Shown one piece after another: positions 370 through 18,324 of a DNA stretch of 19,752 nucleotides. Origin of the DNA: Willaertia magna. Its lineage: Eukaryota > Heterolobosea > Eutetramitea > Acrasida > Naegleriidae. The position numbers were made by a program, and so were the translations under genes. How positions within the stretch are numbered: position 1 is the first letter of the stretch; each line of letters starts with the position of its first letter. The notes beneath the pieces are model-generated. The model was given only the letters and a program-made list of their open reading frames with translations. It was not told where the DNA came from and did not search any database. The DNA lies in contig CADWAF010000516.1 of the NCBI GenBank assembly GCA_902984215.1, positions 1 to 19,752 of the forward strand. The letters are read 5' to 3'.

Positions 370-2322
370 ATGGGAACACGTGATGACAGCAACCAAAAGA
401 AACTTTTCACATCTATAGACGTGGCAGGTCCACAAGCAAAAAGTTATTTGAAAATGGAGGAATTAGTAACAGCAAACGCTCATCATCGCTATGAACTCTA
501 TGAATATTTTTCATTTGAAGAACTATCAAAACACTCCTTTAAAACATACATTGATCTTATCCATAGATTTATAATTTTTTTATTATTGGAAAGTAAACCA
601 TTATTTACAGTCAAACCATCAGAAAATGATCATTTAGAAAGAATTTTAAAAGATTATTCAATTAATAAACCTTTACAATATTTAAAAGAAGAAAATGAAA
701 ATATTGATTATTTTTTTATTGACACAAATTATTCGTCTCTTTTTGACGTTTACAATAATGAAATTACTTTACAAAAAGAGGAAAAGAAAAGAATTATTGA
801 CTATAATAATCAAATGGAAGAAGACAGTGACGATCTGGAAGAACTTGACAATGAAGAAGAGCAGGAACAAGAATTAGAAGAAAAAGAGAATTTTAAAAAG
901 AAAAAAAAGATAATTGAATATGTTCCTCCTTTTATCTCAAATTATTTTTTAAATATTACAAGAAAATATATCCCAGTATCTAAATTAGGAAAAGAAATTT
1001 ACAATGAAATTCACTTTAAATCATTTGAAGATATGTATTATAATATTAATAGATTAATTTTTGATGATCAATTACTATCTAATTTTATTACAACTTATTT
1101 TAATTTTGAAAATCAAATAATTGAAAATACAAATTTAGATAAAAATTATTTATTAGAAATTATTTGTCGTGGATTTTGTGTGATTGGTGAAATTATTGTC
1201 ATTGTGATTGGTGAAATTATTGTCATTGAAATGTTATCGAAAATACAAGAAGCAAGTTCTTTTAGTGAGTTGAATAATGAATTTATATTTTTTAAACGAA
1301 TTAAAGAAAGTGCTTCTTTGGATATGTATTGTTTTTCTTTATTATTCACAAATGATTTTACAATTATTCAATCTTGTAAAGATTTAACTACATTTATTGA
1401 AAATGATAATATTGATAATGATATTAAACAAATTGAAAAGAATTATTTATTTAAAAAATTACCAATTGATATTCATTCTATTATTTTAAGATTTATTGAT
1501 AATTATAAAGATTTATTGGATTTAAGAATTATTTGTAAACATTGGAATAATTTAATTGTAAATAATAATGATATCTGGAAGTATCAATGTTATAATACTT
1601 TAATACAAAATTCATTGTTTACGTTGTGTAATACGCAATCATTACCTTTTAAAGAATTTGAAAAACGATTTAATGTCGACCAATCATTCACTCTTTTCTT
1701 TACAAAAATTAAACCGTTACTAAATTTTGAACGTTTTAAAAAGGATAGTGATGAAAGTAATGTAGGCAATTTTCCAGAAACTAACTATTCAACATGTATT
1801 TATATTAATCCAAATAATTTCTCTGTCAGTAAAGGATCTACTAAAACTGTCAACAATAATAATCAATTTCAACCTGATTTACCTCCTGCAATGTCAATGA
1901 AAGAAGATGAAAGGTGTTTAGTGCAATTAAATTGTAAAGAATTAAGTAGATTTTTTAGTGGATCTTATTTACCTAAAACTGGAATGATTTATATTTTTCA
2001 AGAAAATTGGATTGAAAACAAAATTAGAGTTGAATACACAGAATACGAATTTGATTATGACAAAAGTAACACAATAGAAATAGTTTACGCTTTGAAAGAA
2101 AACAATTTGGAAAACCCTCAAATAGAAAGTGGAGTAGCTATGCTTAATAATGGTGGAGAAGATATCTTGTCGATGAAATTAATTTATGAAACAATTACAA
2201 TATCAAAACAAGATTCATTGCAGATGAATTTTAATAAGGCACACATAACTAATATCTTGGAAAGAACACATAAAAAGAAAAAGAAGAAACCATACCGTGG
2301 AAAATTAATTGAAATTAATTAA
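370..2322 (+). CDS. F-box protein with possible DUF1963/YwqG-like C-terminal region
   Basis: A single exon of 650 codons; the ATG follows an A-run. Residues about 362-408 form an F-box: LPIDI at 364-368, then a leucine-spaced helix, ICKHW at 388-392 and a distal Trp near 404. F-boxes bind Skp1 and make a protein the substrate adaptor of an SCF ubiquitin ligase, so that role is inferred. The F-box is central rather than N-terminal. The first 360 residues hold a very acidic stretch (about 140-170) followed by a Lys run. The region about 505-600 (LVQLNCKEL, then LPKTGMIYIF) resembles the core of DUF1963/YwqG proteins by eye; this is tentative. The chain ends in a Lys-rich segment that could be a nuclear localisation signal. 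A perfect 24-bp tandem duplication lies at codons 271-286. The convergent gene's stop is 18 bp away. Confidence 0.8.
   Translation: MGTRDDSNQKKLFTSIDVAGPQAKSYLKMEELVTANAHHRYELYEYFSFEELSKHSFKTYIDLIHRFIIFLLLESKPLFTVKPSENDHLERILKDYSINKPLQYLKEENENIDYFFIDTNYSSLFDVYNNEITLQKEEKKRIIDYNNQMEEDSDDLEELDNEEEQEQELEEKENFKKKKKIIEYVPPFISNYFLNITRKYIPVSKLGKEIYNEIHFKSFEDMYYNINRLIFDDQLLSNFITTYFNFENQIIENTNLDKNYLLEIICRGFCVIGEIIVIVIGEIIVIEMLSKIQEASSFSELNNEFIFFKRIKESASLDMYCFSLLFTNDFTIIQSCKDLTTFIENDNIDNDIKQIEKNYLFKKLPIDIHSIILRFIDNYKDLLDLRIICKHWNNLIVNNNDIWKYQCYNTLIQNSLFTLCNTQSLPFKEFEKRFNVDQSFTLFFTKIKPLLNFERFKKDSDESNVGNFPETNYSTCIYINPNNFSVSKGSTKTVNNNNQFQPDLPPAMSMKEDERCLVQLNCKELSRFFSGSYLPKTGMIYIFQENWIENKIRVEYTEYEFDYDKSNTIEIVYALKENNLENPQIESGVAMLNNGGEDILSMKLIYETITISKQDSLQMNFNKAHITNILERTHKKKKKKPYRGKLIEIN
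1180..1227 (+). repeat. Perfect 24-bp tandem duplication inside the F-box gene
   Basis: Two identical 24-bp units (1180-1203 and 1204-1227) lie head to tail and in frame, each adding the eight residues VIGEIIVI. There is no mismatch between the copies, so the duplication is recent or homogenised. It lengthens a hydrophobic beta-type segment about 80 residues before the F-box. Confidence 0.95.
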
Positions 2323-2340: not shown

Positions 2341-5205
2341 TTAGTGAAAGTAGTGATTATAATCAAGAAGATGAGGATGGTAATTTATCCATTCCAATGC
2401 CAACTCTCTATCATTTGTAAAGGCAAAATGTTCACTCCTACCTGCAACTGGTTTACTTTTTTGAATGAACACAGTTGTTTCAATTTCATTTCCTTCATCA
2501 TCTTCTACCATTTCAACACAACCAGGTATTGCCTTTTGTATTTTTCTTTCTTTTTCTTCTTTACTTAAATAAATTAAATCAGTGTAAGAATCATAGTCCT
2601 CAACATTATTTTCTTCAAACATGTAGTGTAAGGCAACGGTAGATGAATTACTATCTGTTGAATATCCATCACTTATATAATCTTCATCTTCTTCATCATT
2701 GATTGACTGTAAAGAAGGATAATCATTCTTTTTTGTTACTTCTTCTTCTTCTTCAAAACAATTAAAACAAATAGTTTCGTTAGTCAAATGAATTATTAAA
2801 GTTTTTATCCATTCGTTCGTTTGATATAAATGATAAACACTTTCTACAGCTTTTTCAAATAAATTAATTAAATTTGATTTCCAAAAAATATATTCCAATA
2901 AACTTTTAACACAAACATTACTTTTATAAATAATAATCTTTTTAGTCAACTGAGTGGAAACCAATTTTATATCTTCATTTTGTAAATAATCTCTTCCATA
3001 AAAGTCAGCTATTTCATTGGCAATTGAAAAAAGAAATTGACTGGCAAATTGTTCCATTCCTTCTTGCAATAAATTTAATACCATTGGTGTCATTGGTACT
3101 TCGTTGCGAAAATAATTTCCAACTTCTCCAACCAATCTACGAAATGGTAATTTGGATATTAACAAAGATTCTCTTTTCACAATATTTGATTTAAAGAGTA
3201 ATTGTTCTTCTTCATTTGTCAATTTCAGTTTCTTTTCAACTGGTTCTTTGTCGTTAATATTTGTGGAAGAAATATTATTTTCTATTTCCTCACTAAACTT
3301 TCTCTTTCCAATATTAACACTACTTAATTTATAAGAACCTTCCAAAGGCATATATTCTTTGTTTTCTACAGTCTCAAAAGGTTGTAAAAGAGTTTGGATT
3401 TTACAATATTCATTAAAATTATTTTCAGCTTGCAAGTTGACAGAAATGGTAGAATTAACATTTTCCAATAAAGCTATACTATCATTCAATATCTTTTCTT
3501 CTGTTTTATCATTGTCACTATTCATAATAGTATGAATAGAAATCATTTCTTCTTCATCATCATCATCTGATTGATGTGTATAATAATGTGTTTCAAGTGG
3601 TTCAATATTATGATCAAAATCATAATAATCTGAATAACGTGATCTTTCTAAAGTAAAATTAGAATGCATTTCAATAACTGTATTTTTATCTCCATAACAT
3701 AACCATGAATTCTTTTCATTTCTTTTTCTTTCAATTATTTTCTTCATGTCTTCACTTTCTTTCTCGTCTAAATCAATAATATATTCCTCTTCCTTTTTTT
3801 CTTTTTCAAAATCAATTACTTCTTCTAATGTTTTATTATTCTCATTTTCCTCATTACATTCTTGCTCATTTTTTAGTTTGTTGTCTTCTTTTTCCAATAA
3901 AACACTACTTTCAACTCTCTTTTTATCTTTTAATTTTAGTGTTTTACTATTCTTTAAATGTAAGTCAACTATTTCTTCTCCAACTATATCTTTAAATAAA
4001 TTAATTAAATTATCATAATTTAATAAGATAGATAATTCAATAGGTGATACTAAATGATACATTGAGCGTGAGAATGGATTAGCACCATATTCTAATAATA
4101 ATAATTTAATTAAATCTTCATTTCTTTGCTTAACTGCATAATGTAAAATTGTCAAACCAATATTATCTGTTAAATTACACATCGTAAAACATGAAATAAT
4201 TCCTGTTTCTTTTAAAATTAATTTGTTTTGTGCTAAATTTAATAATTCATCAATTTGTTTTAATTTATTATCTGGATTTAAACAAAATTGTAATAATTCT
4301 TTGTTTCCTTTCCAACAAGCTAAATGTTGTAATAAAAATGATTTACAAAATGTTGGTTTTAAATGTTTATAATTTTTACCAACAAAGCTAATATCTTCTT
4401 TAAAGTCAACTAAATGAATAAATAATCCAGTTTTAAATAATTCTTTTACAATAAAAGATGCAATATTATCAGTTAAATTATTATTAATTTTAACATTTGA
4501 CAAGTTATCAATTATATTTAATAATAAATCTCTAGGGAATATTGAATAAATTGGGTCAATAATTCTCCAATAAGAAATAATCGAATTATTATAGTTATTT
4601 CTATTATACTTTTCTTCTTCTTCTTCTTTATGAATAGATTGTAAAAAATTCAAGATATTTAAATTAAATAACTTTTCAATAGTAATTTCATTTTGATTTC
4701 TTGTATATTCATTATCATTTAATAATTGTAAAGTTGGTTCTAATAATTTGTAAAATAAATAATGAAAACATGATATCATATTTTTAGGTGTGACAAATTC
4801 CAATACATTTTGACTTAATGATATTTTTAATAAAAATCTTAATAATTTATTATTGTAATCCTCTTGTTTTGAAAATAAATCAATCCATTTTATTACTAAT
4901 TGTTGAAATACTATTTCATTATCATCCATTATTAAATTATTTTTGTTTAAATTTAATTTTGAATTTAAATTTACATTTCTAATTGTATCATTACTTATTT
5001 TTAAATATTTATAGAACCATTGATGTAAATTACAATTATTTGACAGCTGTAATTCAATTAAAATGTTCCAAAATCTATCTTGTTCTGTAAATTCATAAAA
5101 ATGTTTATTTAAATAACGAATGGAATAAATAGTTTTGTGTAAATCGGAGGTGTCAAACAGATAGGATAAAATTATTTCTAAATTTTCAAATGGTATTTGT
5201 TGCAT
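2341..5205 (-). CDS. F-box / ankyrin / histone-H3-like fold fusion protein
   Basis: One uninterrupted exon of 954 residues; ATG at 5203-5205 after an A-run. Residues 1-50 look like an F-box (IPFENLEIILSYLF, then a distal FW near 45). Residues about 289-405 carry ankyrin-like repeats (LLQHLACWKGNKELLQFCL; LTILHYAVKQRNEDLIKLLL; YGANP). About 430-500 is a Glu/Lys-rich linker. Basic patches near 645-670 (KRK; KKLKL) could be a nuclear signal. Residues about 680-756 match the histone H3 fold: LLISKLPFRRLVGEV, then F699, LQE at 713-715, E718, LF at 725-726, N730, R738 and DI at 745-746, in H3 order and spacing. The last 120 residues are acidic with interspersed Tyr. No family with this whole architecture is known to me. 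Inferred: a nuclear SCF-type adaptor that could pair with H4 or an H3 chaperone. Confidence 0.85.
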   Translation of the reverse strand: MQQIPFENLEIILSYLFDTSDLHKTIYSIRYLNKHFYEFTEQDRFWNILIELQLSNNCNLHQWFYKYLKISNDTIRNVNLNSKLNLNKNNLIMDDNEIVFQQLVIKWIDLFSKQEDYNNKLLRFLLKISLSQNVLEFVTPKNMISCFHYLFYKLLEPTLQLLNDNEYTRNQNEITIEKLFNLNILNFLQSIHKEEEEEKYNRNNYNNSIISYWRIIDPIYSIFPRDLLLNIIDNLSNVKINNNLTDNIASFIVKELFKTGLFIHLVDFKEDISFVGKNYKHLKPTFCKSFLLQHLACWKGNKELLQFCLNPDNKLKQIDELLNLAQNKLILKETGIISCFTMCNLTDNIGLTILHYAVKQRNEDLIKLLLLEYGANPFSRSMYHLVSPIELSILLNYDNLINLFKDIVGEEIVDLHLKNSKTLKLKDKKRVESSVLLEKEDNKLKNEQECNEENENNKTLEEVIDFEKEKKEEEYIIDLDEKESEDMKKIIERKRNEKNSWLCYGDKNTVIEMHSNFTLERSRYSDYYDFDHNIEPLETHYYTHQSDDDDEEEMISIHTIMNSDNDKTEEKILNDSIALLENVNSTISVNLQAENNFNEYCKIQTLLQPFETVENKEYMPLEGSYKLSSVNIGKRKFSEEIENNISSTNINDKEPVEKKLKLTNEEEQLLFKSNIVKRESLLISKLPFRRLVGEVGNYFRNEVPMTPMVLNLLQEGMEQFASQFLFSIANEIADFYGRDYLQNEDIKLVSTQLTKKIIIYKSNVCVKSLLEYIFWKSNLINLFEKAVESVYHLYQTNEWIKTLIIHLTNETICFNCFEEEEEVTKKNDYPSLQSINDEEDEDYISDGYSTDSNSSTVALHYMFEENNVEDYDSYTDLIYLSKEEKERKIQKAIPGCVEMVEDDEGNEIETTVFIQKSKPVAGRSEHFAFTNDRELALEWINYHPHLLDYNHYFH
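2938..3168 (-). other. Histone-H3-like fold domain (residues about 680-756 of the F-box/ankyrin protein)
   Basis: Aligned from memory with canonical H3 residues 59-126, this segment is collinear with a single one-residue insertion in the middle of helix 2 and shows roughly two dozen identities in about 67 positions. The PF-x-R-L-V-x-E-[IV] block is the classic H3 signature; only the basic residue after RLV is replaced, by Gly. Helix 2 keeps LQE..E and LF, and the loop 2 / helix 3 region keeps R...DI-L. The H3 N-terminal tail is absent, since the fold sits inside a larger protein. Loop 1 shows no CENP-A-style insertion. Confidence 0.8.
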
Positions 5206-10275: not shown

Positions 10276-12156
10276 TTATTGCAATGGTGCAGTATTCTTT
10301 TCAAGATAAGCTAAAGCAAGAGCATCGCTTTGTAACAATGGAGACAATTTCTCTCTCACCTCTTGATTGTAAGCATTAATCCATTCAATTTCTTTTTTAC
10401 TTAATAAATTAGTGTCAATTAAAGAAGGTTGCATTGGACATAATGTAACATGTTCAAATCCAAGATATTGTTTATCATTAAACTTTTTCAATGTTTCAAC
10501 TGGTTTGACTATTAAAATATTTTCTATTCTAATACCAAAATTACCAGGTTCATAATATCCAGGTTCATCTGTAACAATCATACTTTCTTTTAATCCAAAG
10601 TCATTAACAACAATACTACGATAGGTTATTCCATGAGGTCCTTCATGAACAACTAATCCATGTCCAACACCGTGACCAGTACCATGGTTATAATCTAAAC
10701 CGTCTTGCCAAAGTGGAGTTCTAGCAATGGCATCTAATCTATAACCACTTGTTCCCTCTGGGAATACAAGAGTAGTTAAGGCAATATGTCCTTGTAAAAC
10801 ACGAGTGAAACAACGTTTTTGATACTCTGATGCTTCACCAAAATGTACTGTTCTTGTGACATCTGTAGTACCGTCTTTGTAGTGAGCTCCAGAATCAACC
10901 AAATACAAACTTGAAGTACCAACTGTTGCACTATTCTTTGGGTCTGGGCCATAATGAATGATTGCGCCATTTGAACCATAGCCACTAATAGTTTGGAATG
11001 AAAGTCCAATGAATAAATCATTTTCTTTTCTAAATTCTTCTAATTTCAAAGCAGCATCATATTCATTGATAGTGTTTCCTTCTTTAAGATGATTTTCTAA
11101 CCAAGCTAAATAACGAACCAAAGAAGCACCATCTCTAACATGGCAGTCTCTAAATCCTTGTTTTTCTGTGTCGTTCTTTACAGCTTTAATTATCTTTACA
11201 AAACTATTATCTCTTACAACTTTACACTTAATGTTTTCTAATACTGCATAGTTACATGTCTTTGGATCAATAAAACATTTCAATCCCTTATCCTTTTCAG
11301 TAAGTTGACATAATTCCTTACAAAAACTATCATAAGGTCTAATTAAAACACCATCCTTTTCTTCTAACTCTTTCTTTAATTCAACATTTTCAAATTTAGA
11401 TTCATCAACAAATAAATATGCATTATCTAATGTTACCAATAAATAACTAATAAAAAGGGTATTGAAGGCAATATCTGCACCTCTTAAATTCAATAACCAA
11501 GCAATTTCATCTAATGCTGTCAATACATAAAAACTACATTCTTTTGTCTTCATTTCACTTCTTACTTGTGTAAGTTTATCTTGAACATCTCTTCCAGTGA
11601 ACTCCTTATCTAATTTAAAAATTTTACCGTGTGGTGCTGATGGCCTATCTGTCCAAACTTGATCAACTAAGTTTTGTTGGATAGTTTTAACAGTTAAATC
11701 TAATTCTGGATTTGTTTTAATTGATTTTTCTAAATCTTCAAATCCTTGAACTGAATATAAGAATGGATCTACACCTACAACAGATCCTTTAGTCATATTC
11801 TATGAATTTCAAGGTTGACCTGACCTATTATAAAAAATCTTTTTACTTACGCCATTGGAAGTAATCCAAGATGTCAATGATGGATCTATTCCTTCTTTCA
11901 TTAATTTCCAGCATGAAGAATCTAATTGTTGTTCTGCTTGTAAAAAGTATCTACCATCAGTAAATAATAAAGCCTTATCTAAAGTTACAAAAGCAGTACC
12001 TGCAGATCCATTAAAACCCGAAATATATCCTCTTCTAGCTTGATCATCAGAAACATATTCCGATTGATGAGCATCAGCAGATGGAATTATATAAGCATGA
12101 ATAGAATGCTTTTGCATTAATTCACGCAAGTGGGTTAATTTCTTTAAAGCGTTCAT
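10276..12156 (-). CDS. XPNPEP1: Xaa-Pro aminopeptidase P, M24B metallopeptidase (2 exons)
   Basis: Exons 11851-12156 and 10276-11799, with a 51-bp intron (GTAAGT...CATAG), encode 609 residues (human XPNPEP1: 623). The enzyme removes an N-terminal residue ahead of proline using a dinuclear metal centre. All five ligands are present: D404 and D415 (LVDSGAHYKDGTTD), H478 (HGTGHGVGHG), E514 (DEPGYYEPG) and E528 (GIRIEN). H384 and H487 match the catalytic histidines. The N-terminal creatinase-like domains begin with HAYIIPSADAHQSEY and DGRYF. The first in-frame ATG is 12154-12156. The frame is open 35 codons further upstream without an ATG, so a longer isoform would need an upstream exon. The other possible 3' splice sites in the intron lead to stops. 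Confidence 0.95.
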
Positions 12157-12372
12157 TTTTTCTTGTCTTTGTAATCTCAACTTTGTTTTCCACAAGGACA
12201 ACCTGGCAAGTAGAAGATTAGAAGTTTTAGAAGACAACCTTATTGCTGATAATGGTCGCTCCTAGTAGACATAAAGTTTACAGTGTCTACAAGTTTCTTG
12301 TGAAATTAATTAATTTCTGAATCACTTCATCTAAGCTCATTGATTTTCTTTTTAAAATTTAACTTTAAAAAA

Positions 12373-12741
12373 ATGAATAAATTAATTGCAAGAAGAGTTA
12401 TTCCTGCTCTATTGAAGAAAAACAAAAATTTCCTACCAATTATCAATAACATTTGTGTCCGATCATTTTCTCAAACTCCTTTCAGAAGAGATGAAGAAGA
12501 AAAACATAACGCCGTAGAAATTCCAGTTAGACCATGGTATATTTCAACATGTAAGTGTTTTAATGGAATTTTAAAATTTTAAATTACATGTCAATAATAT
12601 TCAGTTGTCGATATTAAAAATTTATTTTACTATCCAGTATTAATGTTAGCTGTTTTCCTTACTGCAGGTTTTTTAATTAACGTTGAAGAAAAGAATTATC
12701 AAAAACAAAAAGCAAAAAAACAACAAACAAAAGAACAATAA
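12373..12741 (+). CDS. Small single-helix protein, probably mitochondrial inner membrane (2 exons)
   Basis: Exons 12373-12550 and 12605-12741, with a 54-bp intron (GTAAGT...TTCAG), encode 104 residues. The first 38 residues are rich in Lys/Arg with no acidic residue (IARRVIPALLKK) and include a VRSFSQ segment, which together look like a cleavable mitochondrial presequence. A soluble stretch (about 39-62) precedes one membrane helix (about 67-85, VLMLAVFLTAGFLI), then a short Lys/Gln-rich tail. This shape is typical of small supernumerary respiratory-complex or ATP-synthase subunits, but no family is recognised, so that is inference only. The ATG at 12373 follows an A-run. The gene is divergent from aminopeptidase P with about 216 bp between start codons. 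Confidence 0.75.
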
Positions 12742-12956
12742 ATAAATTATTCAATAATGGTGTAAATTAGAAAAGAGAAAAGGGAATAAGTAAAAAAAAG
12801 AAATTTTTAATCCTTTGTACTAAATTTTAAGTAGTAAACTCAAATAATTTTCAAAAATTAGTCTTTAAATAATGCATATAACTTTCTTCCAGTTCCTCTC
12901 TTCACATCATCCCCAACCAATTTAGTTCTATTTTAAAAAAAAATTGAAGTCATAAG

Positions 12957-13715
12957 ATGAGCGGTAAGATTACTATGAAACAGGCGATGGAAACGCTTTC
13001 TTCAATGTTTCCAGATTATCCACAAGAAACTCTTAAGTCCGTGTTATATGAAACTAATGGACATATGGAAAGAACTATTGAATGTTTATTGCAAATGGGT
13101 CCACCTCCTTCTTCTACAAATAACTATCAAACTTCATCTAATAACAACAACAATAGATCAGCTTCATCAACTACAACAAAAGGACCATCTGTACGACATA
13201 ATTTACCTGCCGACTTTTTAAGATATTCTGATTTATGTCCTCAAGATGAAGGAAATAGATCATCAAGTAATATGGAAGAAGATGAAAGATTAGCTTACCA
13301 ACTTCAAACTGGATTATATTTACAATCAAATCATGACAATTCACCAAGTTATCCTTCTGGTCCATTGACCTCTCAAACAACATTTAATAATCAACAACCA
13401 TACAACATGTATTCAACACCACCCCCAACAAGTAATCCAATACCTATGCGTACTACAAGTACTTCTTCTAGAATGGTTGGTATTGAAGGGCATGGAACGG
13501 GATCATCTTCTTCAAGAACAACAAGTGGGTCAACTAATAATAATCCTTCTGGAATTGATCAATTGAGTGATTTCGCAAAAAAGAAGTTTGGAGAATTTAA
13601 AAAAATGTTTGGAAATAAAAATACAAAAACAACAAATCAAGAAGAAGATGAAACGGTAATGAGATCTGGATTATTACGCGATTCTGATGACGAAGAAGAA
13701 AATAATAGATTGTAA
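12957..13715 (+). CDS. CUE-domain (ubiquitin-binding) protein
   Basis: A single exon of 252 residues. Residues about 5-47 form a CUE domain with its two diagnostic sites: MFP (17-19) and a di-leucine at the end of helix 3 (CLL, 43-45). CUE domains bind mono-ubiquitin, or ubiquitin-like surfaces, in trafficking and ERAD factors. The rest is mostly disordered Ser/Thr/Asn/Pro sequence. Two short conserved-looking pieces stand out: LPADFLRY at 83-90, and a charged helix near 104-115 (EEDERLAYQLQ), a pairing also seen in other small CUE proteins as I recall them. A Lys/Phe-rich helix (FAKKKFGEFKKMFG) and an acidic C-terminus (DSDDEEENN) follow. The specific role is unknown. Confidence 0.8.
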   Translation: MSGKITMKQAMETLSSMFPDYPQETLKSVLYETNGHMERTIECLLQMGPPPSSTNNYQTSSNNNNNRSASSTTTKGPSVRHNLPADFLRYSDLCPQDEGNRSSSNMEEDERLAYQLQTGLYLQSNHDNSPSYPSGPLTSQTTFNNQQPYNMYSTPPPTSNPIPMRTTSTSSRMVGIEGHGTGSSSSRTTSGSTNNNPSGIDQLSDFAKKKFGEFKKMFGNKNTKTTNQEEDETVMRSGLLRDSDDEEENNRL

Positions 13716-14026
13716 ATAGAATAAATTGTAAATTAATTAGATTATTGTAAGAAAATTTTAAGTATTATGTCATTCATACAAATTCGTTTTTTAAGATATT
13801 TATAACAAGGTAATTTTCACAAAAAGGTTTTAACAATCTTTAACAACTTTTTAGTGGTCGGTTTGAACCAAAATTATTGAGAAAAACTTTACAATTTTAA
13901 CTTTATGATACTGTGAAGCTTTACAGAAAAAAGTTTACCGTACAAAAAGCTTAAAAACAAACGCGTGCACTAACAACAAAGACTTACTTCTTTCCCTTGA
14001 GGAAATAAATATACATCATTCAAAAG
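13716..14026 (+). promoter_or_regulatory. 311-bp spacer: 3' UTR of the CUE gene and CDC14 promoter
   Basis: AT-rich spacer between two plus-strand genes. The left part should be the CUE gene's 3' UTR, the right part the CDC14 promoter and 5' UTR. The one conspicuous element is ACGCGT at 13961-13966, described separately. No tRNA or repeat is seen. Confidence 0.5.
13961..13966 (+). promoter_or_regulatory. ACGCGT (MCB-like) hexamer upstream of CDC14
   Basis: A GC-rich ACGCGT hexamer sits 61 bp before the CDC14 start codon in otherwise AT-rich DNA. ACGCGT is the MluI cell-cycle box bound by MBF in fungi. Relevance in this organism is inference; a single hexamer can arise by chance. Confidence 0.3.
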
Positions 14027-15916
14027 ATGTTTAGTGACTTGTTAAGGAATGATAATGAAAGCAATAATGCATCACCGCTTAGCCTCAAGCAGTGGACTAC
14101 ATTTTACCAAGAAAAAATGTCCGATCCCTTAAAGAATGCTGTATGTTTTATTCCTGACCGTCTTTATTGGATGTCGATGAGAAGAATGCCACTTTCCTTT
14201 GATACGGCTACTATTCATTATGTAACAGTAGATGATAAGTTTGTTTATGAACCTTTCTACAATGATTTTGGTCCCTTAAATCTCGGAAATACAATAGCCT
14301 TCTGTAGACTTATTGAGGGAAAGTTACAGGTAAGAAATTAATTATAGTTGTTAATTATTTCTTTAATTCCTCTTTTCTCTAAGTCTGTTTCTCTCAGTAA
14401 TAAGAAACTTGTCATTATTACTAGTTTTGATGGTGGTAAGAGAGCGAATGCTGCGTACCTTATTTGCGCTTTTATGATAATTGTATTAGGCTATGATCCA
14501 GAAGATGCTTTTAAACCATTTCTCAATATATATCCTCCATTTCATCCTTTCAGAGACGCATCTCAATGTAAGTCTCCCTTAATTGATCTTTGAATAATAA
14601 TAACAAATTTTATTAAGCCTTATCTACCTTTAATTTGACAGTATTAGATTGTTGTAAAGCTTTAAAGAAAGCTATTTCCTTAGGATTTTTACATTACAGT
14701 TTATTTAATACAGAAGATTATTTCCATTATGAAAAGGTGGAAAATGGTGATATGAATTGGATTGTCCCTGGAAAATTCCTTGCATTTTCGTCTCCAGCAA
14801 ACAGAAGGATAACTGGTGATGGTTTAGTACATTTTACACCTGAGGATTATTTACCATTATTTAAAAAGTGGAATATAACAGCTATTGTAAGATTAAACAA
14901 ACAATTATATGATAAAAAGAAATTTACTGCTAATGGAATAAGACACTTTGACATGTACTTTCCTGATGGCTCCATTCCATCTGATGAAATTGTAAAGAAA
15001 TTTTTGTCGATATGTGATACTGAAAAAGGTGCAATAGCCGTACATTGTAAAGCAGGCTTAGGTAGAACTGTAAGTATTATAATTTCACAAATTCTTAAAT
15101 AATAATTAAGGGTACACTCATAGGATTGAATCTAATGAGAAGGTACCGATTTACTGCAACTGAGGTAATTGCCTGGTTAAGAATATGTAGACCTGGAAGT
15201 GTCATTGGAATTCAACAACATTTCTTGGATGAAAAGGAATTTAAAATGTGGAAAGACGGAGAAGAGTTTACACCTGCAATTATTGACACAAATCCTCAGT
15301 TAATAATAGCACCAAGTAGTCCTGTACAAACTTCCCCATCTGTTACAATTTCGACAAAGCCTACCATTAACACTACTAAGGAAATAGAACAAAAACTGAC
15401 AGCACTGAAAATAGGAACCAATTTTGAAGAGGAAAAGAAGGAAATTATTTCAACCAAGCCAATCACAACAAATATTCCAGAATCCAATTTTAAAGATACA
15501 CCAATACTTCCAATCCAAGTTAAATGTAAGTATAAATATATTGAGTACTTAATTTAATTACCTTAAAAACAGATACTAAACGTCAAAACAGAGAGAACAA
15601 ATTTCCTTCTAATGATAAAAACAGACCAATATCAACTTCTGTAGTTTCACGTAAACCCGAGGGCAAGACCTCAGTTGACTCAAGAAGTTTAACTCCCCCA
15701 AGAAATCTCTATAAACAAAACCACTATGAATACAACACTGGATCGTCTTTGAATCTTGGATCTAAACCAAACCACCCCACCAAGAAAATGCAGCACTTAG
15801 AAGAATTAAATAATAAATATAATAATAATCCACGAGATAATTTCCTCCTTAAAGAAAACAAAATCATTTCACCAATTACCACAAAGAGACCTATAACCTC
15901 AAAACAACTTAAATAA
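14027..15916 (+). CDS. CDC14: CDC14 dual-specificity phosphatase (5 exons)
   Basis: Exons 14027-14329, 14384-14567, 14618-15069, 15111-15525 and 15573-15916 encode 565 residues (introns 54, 50, 41 and 47 bp). CDC14 dephosphorylates CDK-type pSer-Pro sites in mitosis and cytokinesis. The N-terminal non-catalytic domain ([27 protein letters not shown]) and the catalytic domain are both complete. The P-loop [10 protein letters not shown] has nucleophile C306 and is restored across intron 3, which splits GRT from GTLIG. The general acid D279 lies in the FPDGS loop. [11 protein letters not shown] is the family hallmark after the P-loop. Intron 2's acceptor at 14616-14617 is chosen because it restores [10 protein letters not shown]; the later AG at 14639-14640 would lose conserved residues. 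The last ~190 residues are basic, Ser/Thr/Pro-rich tail. The stop is 18 bp from the convergent PRPP synthetase stop. Confidence 0.95.
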
Positions 15917-15934
15917 AGTCAATAATTTGTTTAT

Positions 15935-16921
15935 TTAAAACAAACTAGAAACTGATTCTTCATTGTGAACTCTTCTAATTGCTTCTCCAATTAATTGACC
16001 AACACAAACTTGGTGAATTTTTGGATGCTCTTTTTCCTTAGATAATGGTACAGTATTTGTGACAATAACCTTTTCAATTGGACTTTCCTCAATTCTCTTA
16101 ACACCACTGCCATTTAATAAAGCATGGGTTGCTGCAGCAAAAATTCTCTTTGCACCATGTTCTTTAAGGAGTTGGGCACATAAAACTAAGGTACCTGCGG
16201 TATCTATCATATCATCAATAATAACACAGTTTTTACCTTCTACATTACCAACCAATTCCATAGTTGCAACCTTATTTGCTTCAACACGTTTCTTATTCAT
16301 AACAGCCATTGTTGCTGCAAGTCTTTTATCCTTTTCATTAAGTGCACTTCTAAAATTATCAGCACGTTCAGCACCACCAGCATCTGGTGACACAACAACT
16401 AAACCTTCATAAGAATCATTTAATAAATGTTCTTCTAAAATAATCTTTTGATAAAAGGATTGAACAATAACTGGTTTTGCATGAAGATTATCTACTGGAA
16501 TATTGAAAAATCCTTGAATTTGTCCGCAATGCAAATCAACAGATAAAACTCTATCTGCTCCTGCACTTTCCAATAATCTAGAAACAAGAGCTGCAGAAAT
16601 AGGAACTCTAGGCTTTGTTTTTCTATCTTGTCTTGCATATCCATAATATGGAATAACAGTTGTAATTCTATTAGCACTAGCACGTTTTAATGCATCAATA
16701 ATTAAACATAATTCCATAAAGTGATCATTAACAGGGGTACATGTTGATTGAATAATATAAACATCAGATCCTCTAACATTTTCCATGATTTGTACTCCAA
16801 TTTCACTATCCGCGAATTTATTAATCATAGTATCAGTTAATCCAACCCCAAGAAATTGAGCAACACGAGCAGCAAGTTCAGGATTAGAGGAACCTCCGAC
16901 AATCTTCAAGTTAAAGCCCAT
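15935..16921 (-). CDS. PRPS: Ribose-phosphate pyrophosphokinase (PRPP synthetase, class I)
   Basis: A single exon of 328 residues; ATG at 16919-16921 after an A-rich run. It makes PRPP from ribose-5-phosphate and ATP, feeding purine, pyrimidine, NAD and histidine synthesis. All key motifs are present: the ATP-binding flexible loop YARQDRK (95-101), DLHCGQIQGFF (129-139) and SPDAGG (178-183). The KR pair (199-200) and the PRPP loop IIDDMIDTAGT (234-244) follow. The C-terminus (AIRRVHNEESVSSLF) and the DMIDTAGT loop look more like bacterial-type class I enzymes than like the animal PRPS1 loop (DMADTCGT as I recall it). No targeting extension is visible, so it is probably cytosolic. An E2F-like site lies about 85 bp upstream. 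Confidence 0.96.
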   Translation of the reverse strand: MGFNLKIVGGSSNPELAARVAQFLGVGLTDTMINKFADSEIGVQIMENVRGSDVYIIQSTCTPVNDHFMELCLIIDALKRASANRITTVIPYYGYARQDRKTKPRVPISAALVSRLLESAGADRVLSVDLHCGQIQGFFNIPVDNLHAKPVIVQSFYQKIILEEHLLNDSYEGLVVVSPDAGGAERADNFRSALNEKDKRLAATMAVMNKKRVEANKVATMELVGNVEGKNCVIIDDMIDTAGTLVLCAQLLKEHGAKRIFAAATHALLNGSGVKRIEESPIEKVIVTNTVPLSKEKEHPKIHQVCVGQLIGEAIRRVHNEESVSSLF

Positions 16922-17003
16922 TTTTTCTTCGAACTGTTTTTTTTTTTAAAATTTTTTTAATTTGGCCATCCAAAGGCCAGTATCAAATTCAATACGCGAT
17001 TTA

Positions 17004-17011
17004 CCGCCAAA
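17004..17011 (-). promoter_or_regulatory. E2F-like site (TTTGGCGG) upstream of PRPP synthetase
   Basis: Reading toward the PRPP synthetase gene, TTTGGCGG lies within a T-run followed by TAAATCGCG, about 85 bp before the ATG. It fits the degenerate E2F consensus WTTSSCSS. E2F/DP controls nucleotide-synthesis genes in animals and plants; function here is inferred. Confidence 0.3.
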
Positions 17012-17078
17012 AAAAATAGGTCAGAAAACTTTCCTAATTTATTATTTACGGCCTCTTTTCCAAAACACAATTTATTAA

Positions 17079-18324
17079 TTATAATTTTGTTGATTTTCTT
17101 CTTCTTGCCTTTTCATTTGCAATTTCTTGTTGTTGTAACACTTTTCTCTTTTCAGATTCCTTAATTACAAAATCTGCAACTTCAGTAAATACATTTTTCG
17201 TTTCATTTTGATCAATTGCAGATAATGGATAAACTCTTAAATTATCTCTAGCATGATCTGTTGTAAATTGTAAATAATATTGTTTTAAAAATTCAATTAC
17301 TTCTTTATCATCTTTTTCATCTCCTTTAAATTCTTTAAAATATTGTTTAAAAGATTTATTTTTTAATTTTTGTTGTAAAATATCCTTTTTGTTTAAAATC
17401 ATTATTAAAGGTGTATTTAAAAACATTGGCTTATTAGAAATATCTCTTAAAACTTCAACTGTTTCTTGTACTCTCCATGTTTCATTTGATTCATAACATG
17501 TTAAATCAAATTCAGATAAAGAAACCATAAATACAATTGCATCAACATCTGAAAATAAATGTATCCACTTTTTACGTTCATTTCTTTGTCCACCAACATC
17601 TACTAATTTTAATTGTTGTCCACTATTTAATTCAAATGCCATTTCAATAATTCCTAATGTTTTAACTCTTGTATGTAAAATATCATCGATTGATGGAATA
17701 TAATCATTTTCACAAATTCTTTGAATATTTTTAAATAAACTATTTACAATCAATCATTAATCAATCATTAATTAACTAATTAACTTACTATTCAGCAGAA
17801 TCATATAATTGAAATTCTTCTCTATTTTGAAAAGCTTGTTGTATTCCTTCATCTTTCCAAACCATTTCAATCTTCTCTTTCCAGTCTTTTGGATTTTCTA
17901 ATAAATCATTTATTGTTAAACTTTCATTTACTAAAGTAGTAGCATATTCAATCGCTTTTTCATTACAAATTTTAATTTCTAAAGTTTGTGTTCCTAAAAT
18001 TAAATTTCTAATATTTTCTAATAGATTTTCATAAACGTCACTTTTCATTTCTTTTCTTGTTTCTTCACTTGCTATTCCTTTATTATACATTAATTGAATT
18101 TGTTTAAATAATGTTGATTTACCATTTTCACCTGGACCTAAAAGTAAAATTGTAATTGGTTTATTATTTTTATTATTATTTGTAAAGATATCACCTGCGG
18201 AGGTACTTGTTGTTGTTACTTGTGGTTGTTGAAATGTAGAGGAAGCTCTGGAACGTCTATTGTTGGAATTAGGTCCCATAAAATCTTCAGTGGTAGTAGT
18301 TGTACTTTTGATAACTTGTCCCAT
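17079..18324 (-). CDS. Divergent heterotrimeric G-protein alpha subunit (2 exons)
   Basis: Exons 17789-18324 and 17079-17739, with a 49-bp intron (GTAAGT...AATAG), encode 398 residues. The splice restores YDSAEYLFKNIQRI, as in other G-alpha proteins. G1 is GPGENGKST (63-71) instead of the usual GAGESGKST. G2 is intact (LHTRVKTLG: R203, T206). G3 is DVGGQR with Q230. G4 is LNKKD. G5 is weak (PLSAID in place of TCAT). A Ser/Thr/Asn-rich insert of about 23 residues lies before the P-loop. Gly2 could be myristoylated, but position 6 is Lys and no Cys is near. The C-terminus runs about 20 residues past the usual end and is basic and Gln/Lys/Arg-rich, so the normal receptor-contact tail is absent. 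Helical and Ras-like domains are otherwise complete. Confidence 0.93.
17751..17772 (+). repeat. 11-bp tandem duplication inside the G-alpha intron
   Basis: CAATCATTAAT occurs twice in a row (17751-17761 and 17762-17772), so 22 of the 49 intron bases are a duplication. The splice sites lie outside it. Confidence 0.9.

Follow-up and report, generated by a model that had tools for sequence, protein, structure and literature searches.

What is a histone H3-like fold doing inside an F-box/ankyrin protein, and is it derived from H3 at all? The question is raised by a minus-strand frame of 954 codons, open throughout (5205..2341), in Willaertia magna. The frame lies in contig CADWAF010000516.1 of assembly GCA_902984215.1, and the window is the whole stretch of 19,752 nucleotides analysed there. 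A sequence-only reading had placed the resemblance to H3 at 3168..2938, that is, residues 680-756. We confirm the likeness, and the stretch is better set at residues 675-749 (2959..3183, minus strand). We computed the H3 ancestry of this fold, the ankyrin repeats, the F-box-like N-terminus, the architecture common to the family and the altered surfaces of the fold. This amoeba family suggests that a histone has been reused to select targets for destruction.

Evidence for an H3-derived fold

The Pfam model Histone (PF00125) matches the whole 954-residue protein with E 1.5e-5 and 25.7 bits, slightly below the curated cut-off of 26.4. The match of a 124-residue piece alone exceeds this cut-off (E 8.8e-7, 29.7 bits). 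In a phmmer search of the PDB with the same piece, the top match is yeast H3 (E 7.5e-6), and the best 60 of 172 matches are all named H3. Combining the window protein with four paralogous loci gives a family profile that reaches E 1.4e-8 in the PDB. Likewise, the best 60 of its 186 matches are all H3.

The family has six distinct members, all from W. magna: the window protein, L002, P0002, P0003, P0004 and P0005. Their six fold regions were compared by hhalign with six H3s of the same genome. The score is 68.9 (E 3.4e-13), against a maximum of 18.7 among 200 column permutations. Comparators from the W. magna genome (H4, H2A and two proteins that we take to be NF-Y-like) score 8.1-11.0, each as one sequence against six in the H3 profile, and with H2B left out. 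Nevertheless, H3s taken singly still score 33.4-58.9, and descent from another of these histone classes is rejected. The canonical H3 (L007) is the best of them with 58.9, while the divergent L012 and L013 give 45.5 and 33.4.

Could the resemblance be due to chance? The Pfam score of the whole protein falls just below the cut-off. In the paralogues, the Histone model gives 25.0 bits for L002, 23.1 for L005 (a partial copy), 13.5 for L003 and no match for L004. P0005 scores 16.0 alone against the H3 profile, within the null range. However, the other five of the six members score 36.3-48.4 individually, and the same columns find no better match to an unrelated family in Pfam or the PDB. With the permuted profiles and the family search of the PDB, these scores rule out chance, which we consider scarcely credible. 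The H3 origin of segment 675-749 is thus supported by Pfam, PDB sequence and hhalign profile comparisons.

Eight segments of the protein were also scored against five histone-fold profiles and one F-box profile. Segment 660-760 with H3 gives 67.6, and segment 1-110 with the F-box gives 39.2. None of the remaining 46 cells exceeds 17.2, which is below the permuted maxima, and no second histone fold is found elsewhere in the protein.

Structure models of the segment predict, with low confidence, helix 1 at residues 685-700 (3106..3153), a long helix 2 at 707-735 (3001..3087) and helix 3 at 743-755 (2941..2979). The VIA-align rows for the fold are weak. Chains of BTG2, MCM and transporters tie there with histone-fold chains, and these rows are not used as support. 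The single-residue insertion relative to H3, described before for the window protein, lies in helix 2. It is present in five of the six members and missing from L002.

Conserved and lost surfaces of the fold

Residue classes (core, DNA-contact and H3-H3' positions) are assigned with human H3 numbering. The core positions are apolar at 21-25 of 27 in the six members, compared with 21-26 of 27 in the six true W. magna H3s. Their identity to canonical H3 at these positions is lower (8-12 of 27, against 13-27 in true H3s). Over the whole fold, the members share 16-25 residues with canonical H3 among 80-82 aligned positions.

Eleven positions of residues 675-749 are invariant in all six members. 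L681, K685, Q714, E718, F726 and N730 are among them and equal the H3 residue. E718 aligns with H3 E97, the residue that pairs with R78 of H4. The core-facing residues are compatible with H4 pairing.

The surfaces used in nucleosomes present a different picture. Lysine or arginine occupies 2-4 of the 11 DNA-contact positions in the members, and 6-8 in true H3s. At the H3-H3' positions, 0-3 of 7 are identical to the canonical L007, against 5-7 of 7 in true H3s. Among single H3 residues, K64 is retained in 6/6 members, R83 and T118 are substituted in 6/6, and the position of H113 is phenylalanine in every member. No modifiable H3 N-terminal tail precedes the fold directly; the long linker 431-660 stands there instead. 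Since the DNA-contact charges and the H3-H3' face are mostly lost, the fold, though H3-derived, is not a regular nucleosomal H3. This pattern is the one to expect if the H3 half still folds, and perhaps pairs, without building nucleosomes.

Architecture of the protein

The six members align with a common order: F-box, ankyrin repeats, linker and H3 fold. We considered whether two joined genes might explain the frame. The same complete order is found in all six members, and P0002-P0005 are recorded as single proteins; as far as sequence can tell, this explanation is ruled out and the composite architecture is genuine. The frame had been described as one continuous exon. The open 954-codon frame stands, and its status as an exon is putative, being read from the frame.

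The F-box-like N-terminus comprises residues 2-52 (5050..5202). Against 27 W. magna F-boxes it scores 37.6 in hhalign (33.3 in a first run), and the maximum of 200 permutations is 19.2. Segment 1-110 is the sole one of the eight segments that scores with the F-box profile. However, the curated Pfam F-box models give no match at the N-terminus of the four long members (the window protein, L002, L003 and L004), under HMMER filters that discard most matches above about E 0.1. L003 has one stray weak F-box match at residues 227-240. When the N-terminal profile (A5) was searched against the PDB, one irrelevant match (E 0.53) came back, giving no support for an F-box. The N-terminal F-box proposed from the sequence stands as a profile similarity, and we use the label F-box-like because the curated models miss it.

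The ankyrin-like repeats proposed with it are clear. They span residues 294-380 (4066..4326), and Pfam finds them in the window protein with E 6.4e-7 and 29.8 bits, for a curated cut-off of 21.1. Pfam also finds them in L002, L003 and L004.

The linker (431-660) has a mean identity of 31% between members. Two strings in it may be SUMO-interaction-like motifs, as read from a pattern scan whose chance level was not estimated. IIDL (residues 476-479, 3769..3780) has acidic surroundings and occurs in 5/6 members. MISI (554-557, 3535..3546) follows an acidic run and occurs in 6/6. A third string is present in 2/6 members, and the same pattern has a stray match within the P0004 fold. Several such motifs, if they bind SUMO, would mark a SUMO-targeted ubiquitin ligase. 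Farther on, the basic clusters KRK (634-636) and KKLKL (658-662), at 3220..3306, form a possible bipartite nuclear localisation signal. G633, K634, R635, K636 and K658 are invariant in 6/6 members, whereas in L002 and P0005 the second cluster is eroded. Residues 750-820 (2746..2958), which follow the fold, are predicted, with low confidence, to be helical. E771, W775, K776, F783 and E810 are invariant there in all six members.

Family members, divergence and origin

Named relatives returned by the searches are W. magna proteins only (P0002-P0005). The W. magna assembly (19.24 Mb, 894 contigs) contains three further long members, L002, L003 and L004. Two of these correspond to named proteins: L004 and P0003 have the same sequence, and L003 and P0002 disagree in 3 of 1013 columns. 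L005 is a near copy of L002. It starts near an apparent contig end, has only the C-terminal part and loses the similarity at its own C-terminal end. A search of the assembly did not recover P0004. An excerpt of the published W. magna genome report gives 36.5 Mb and 25% GC (PMC6892926). The assembly of 19.24 Mb is therefore probably incomplete.

Whole-protein and fold-region searches, of limited sensitivity, returned no relatives beyond Willaertia, including Naegleria. The whole-protein searches scored only the candidates sharing most words (7992 and 7988), one of them overlooked P0005, and the presence of Naegleria proteomes was unchecked. The fold-region search returned the query alone, missing known Willaertia members, so absence outside Willaertia cannot be concluded. 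A search of related protists for the same order had been suggested as a check; the order is seen in the W. magna paralogues, and these searches gave none from other genera. Two patterns used on viral contigs found no relative there, and a viral origin was set aside on this result.

Compared in pairs, the members are on average 64% identical over the F-box part, 58% over the ankyrin repeats and 38% over the fold. Gaps take up 2% of the fold, compared with 26% of the linker. Between L002 and L005, 1087 of 1128 bases are identical, with 9 synonymous and 22 changing codons, which means no clear constraint on this pair.

In a tree, the folds of the family form one group apart from the six H3s of the genome (support 100/100); the tree is unrooted and holds no H3s from outside the genome. 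The single group is consistent with one capture before duplication. On descent from a centromeric H3 variant these sequences give no decision: canonical H3 is the best match, and the branching does not single out a source from the H3 variants.

The histone genes themselves present two further features. The H3 proteins L012 and L013 are divergent: loop 1 is longer in one, and the other has a long N-terminal extension. They are candidate centromeric H3s of W. magna. L010 and L011 are two divergent H3 genes that adjoin on contig C312.

Ubiquitin and SUMO machinery and neighbouring genes

The genome has 3 Skp1 matches and 7 cullin matches. F-box-like matches are at least 104 (150 of 201 candidates scored), which indicates a large F-box family. 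The SUMO-like family has 14 matches. One of them is a SUMO-like frame (L060), whereas in at least two others, L061 and L062, ubiquitin is fused to apparent ribosomal protein tails. Two tandem matches of the same search on contig C193 may be polyubiquitin.

In the window, a convergent neighbour at 370-2322 (plus strand) encodes 650 amino acids; Pfam detects an F-box-like domain in it (residues 362-407, E 7.1e-6). A relative of this neighbour (L041) has a stop shortly past the F-box. The region 10276-17753 contains ordinary genes: a Xaa-Pro aminopeptidase-like peptidase, a CUE-domain protein, a dual-specificity phosphatase-like frame, a ribose-phosphate pyrophosphokinase and a G-protein alpha.

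Possible function and alternative explanations

The reading that we favour, tentatively and a little short of an even chance, is a family of probably nuclear ubiquitin-ligase receptors of the Skp1-cullin-F-box (SCF) type, in which the H3-like half grips H4 or a partner resembling it. The Skp1, cullin and SUMO-like matches of the genome, the invariant E718 and the F-box control of Cse4 in yeast speak for it. In the simplest view, one capture event would have set an H3-like fold downstream of the F-box and ankyrin repeats, and all of these would then have been duplicated together. It would have kept an apolar core of the H4-pairing kind while the DNA-contact and H3-H3' surfaces were mostly lost. 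Outside nucleosomes, the fold would then most likely have H4, or a protein like it, as its partner. This partner, or whatever it binds, would be presented to Skp1-cullin for ubiquitylation. For such a receptor we infer expression, Skp1 binding, a nuclear site, SUMO binding, H4 pairing and a target. The sequence-only reading had suggested dimerisation with H4, or an H3 mimic by which chaperones or variants of H3 would reach an SCF ligase; the latter might also be the case. A narrower proposal, for which we see only a slim chance, is an SCF receptor whose domesticated H3 half detects H4-type histones that are free or foreign, perhaps only in SUMO-marked form, and sends the complex to destruction. 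If it were true, a ubiquitin ligase would read histones by being half a histone.

The low identity to canonical H3, the insertion in helix 2 of five members, the rapid divergence between members and the low core identity to H3 would fit a fold that had become a general module for protein contact or self-association. Such a module would have ceased to bind H4, and would join receptors or another substrate; its histone origin would be a matter of the past. The retained apolar pattern and the six invariant residues equal to H3 speak against it, and we find this account rather unlikely, though a serious competitor. Alternatively, the fold may have no function of its own and be carried along, in decay, by an F-box family with fast turnover. 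The large number of F-box-like matches in a partial genome suggests rapid birth and death, P0005 alone is nearly without H3 signal, and the differences between L002 and L005 show no clear constraint. Conversely, a passenger would hardly be expected to show so few gaps in the fold compared with the linker over six diverged members, nor eleven invariant residues in 675-749. We regard it as unlikely.

Another alternative is an integrated decoy. The H3-like fold would bait microbial or viral proteins that seize histones, and the intruder would be marked for destruction. The presence of several diverging copies of the receptor in an amoeba that feeds by phagocytosis, and a fold that diverges faster than the F-box part, would fit; the rest is speculation. 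Known histone-modifying effectors act on the H3 tail, which is absent here, and no viral relative was found with the two patterns used. We judge a decoy very improbable.

If the favoured reading is true, a core nucleosomal histone, beyond a generic histone-fold protein, would have been captured to serve as the working part of a ubiquitin-ligase receptor. The family would be a natural test of the H3 surfaces required for H4 pairing without DNA and tetramer contacts. It could also represent a new route for the control of histone supply.

Comparison with known systems

Compared with histone H3 and cenH3/CENP-A, the residues follow the same order from where alpha-N ends up to and including helix 3. 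The apolar core is common to them, and the best sequence match is canonical H3. However, the W. magna fold lies within a 954-residue protein, has no H3 tail and has mostly lost the DNA-contact charges and the H3-H3' face. TAFs, NF-Y and CENP-T/W/S/X have histone folds that pair outside canonical nucleosomes, as proposed here. Some of their chains are among the weak VIA-align rows. Nevertheless, the W. magna fold is H3-like by sequence, and the two presumed NF-Y-like proteins of this genome score at background.

The sequence-only reading knew of no described F-box protein with an H3 fold, and the open-licence literature that we searched likewise gave no such fusion. The nearest systems act on histones from outside. 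In yeast, the F-box proteins Met30, Cdc4 and Rcy1 act on the H3 variant Cse4 and direct its destruction, according to an excerpt of PMC7032732; an excerpt of PMC5561092 also treats F-box control of an H3 variant in yeast. An F-box-like N-terminus and a tie to an H3-type histone are in common with the W. magna protein. However, the excerpt of PMC7032732 mentions no histone fold in the receptor, whereas the W. magna receptor itself has an H3-like one. ASB9-CUL5, in the excerpt of PMC12154916, is an ankyrin receptor of a cullin ligase that ubiquitylates histones, similar to what we propose. It differs in its SOCS box and CUL5, and that excerpt mentions no histone fold of its own. Judged by its sequence, the W. 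magna protein is a new combination of known modules, seen thus far only in Willaertia.
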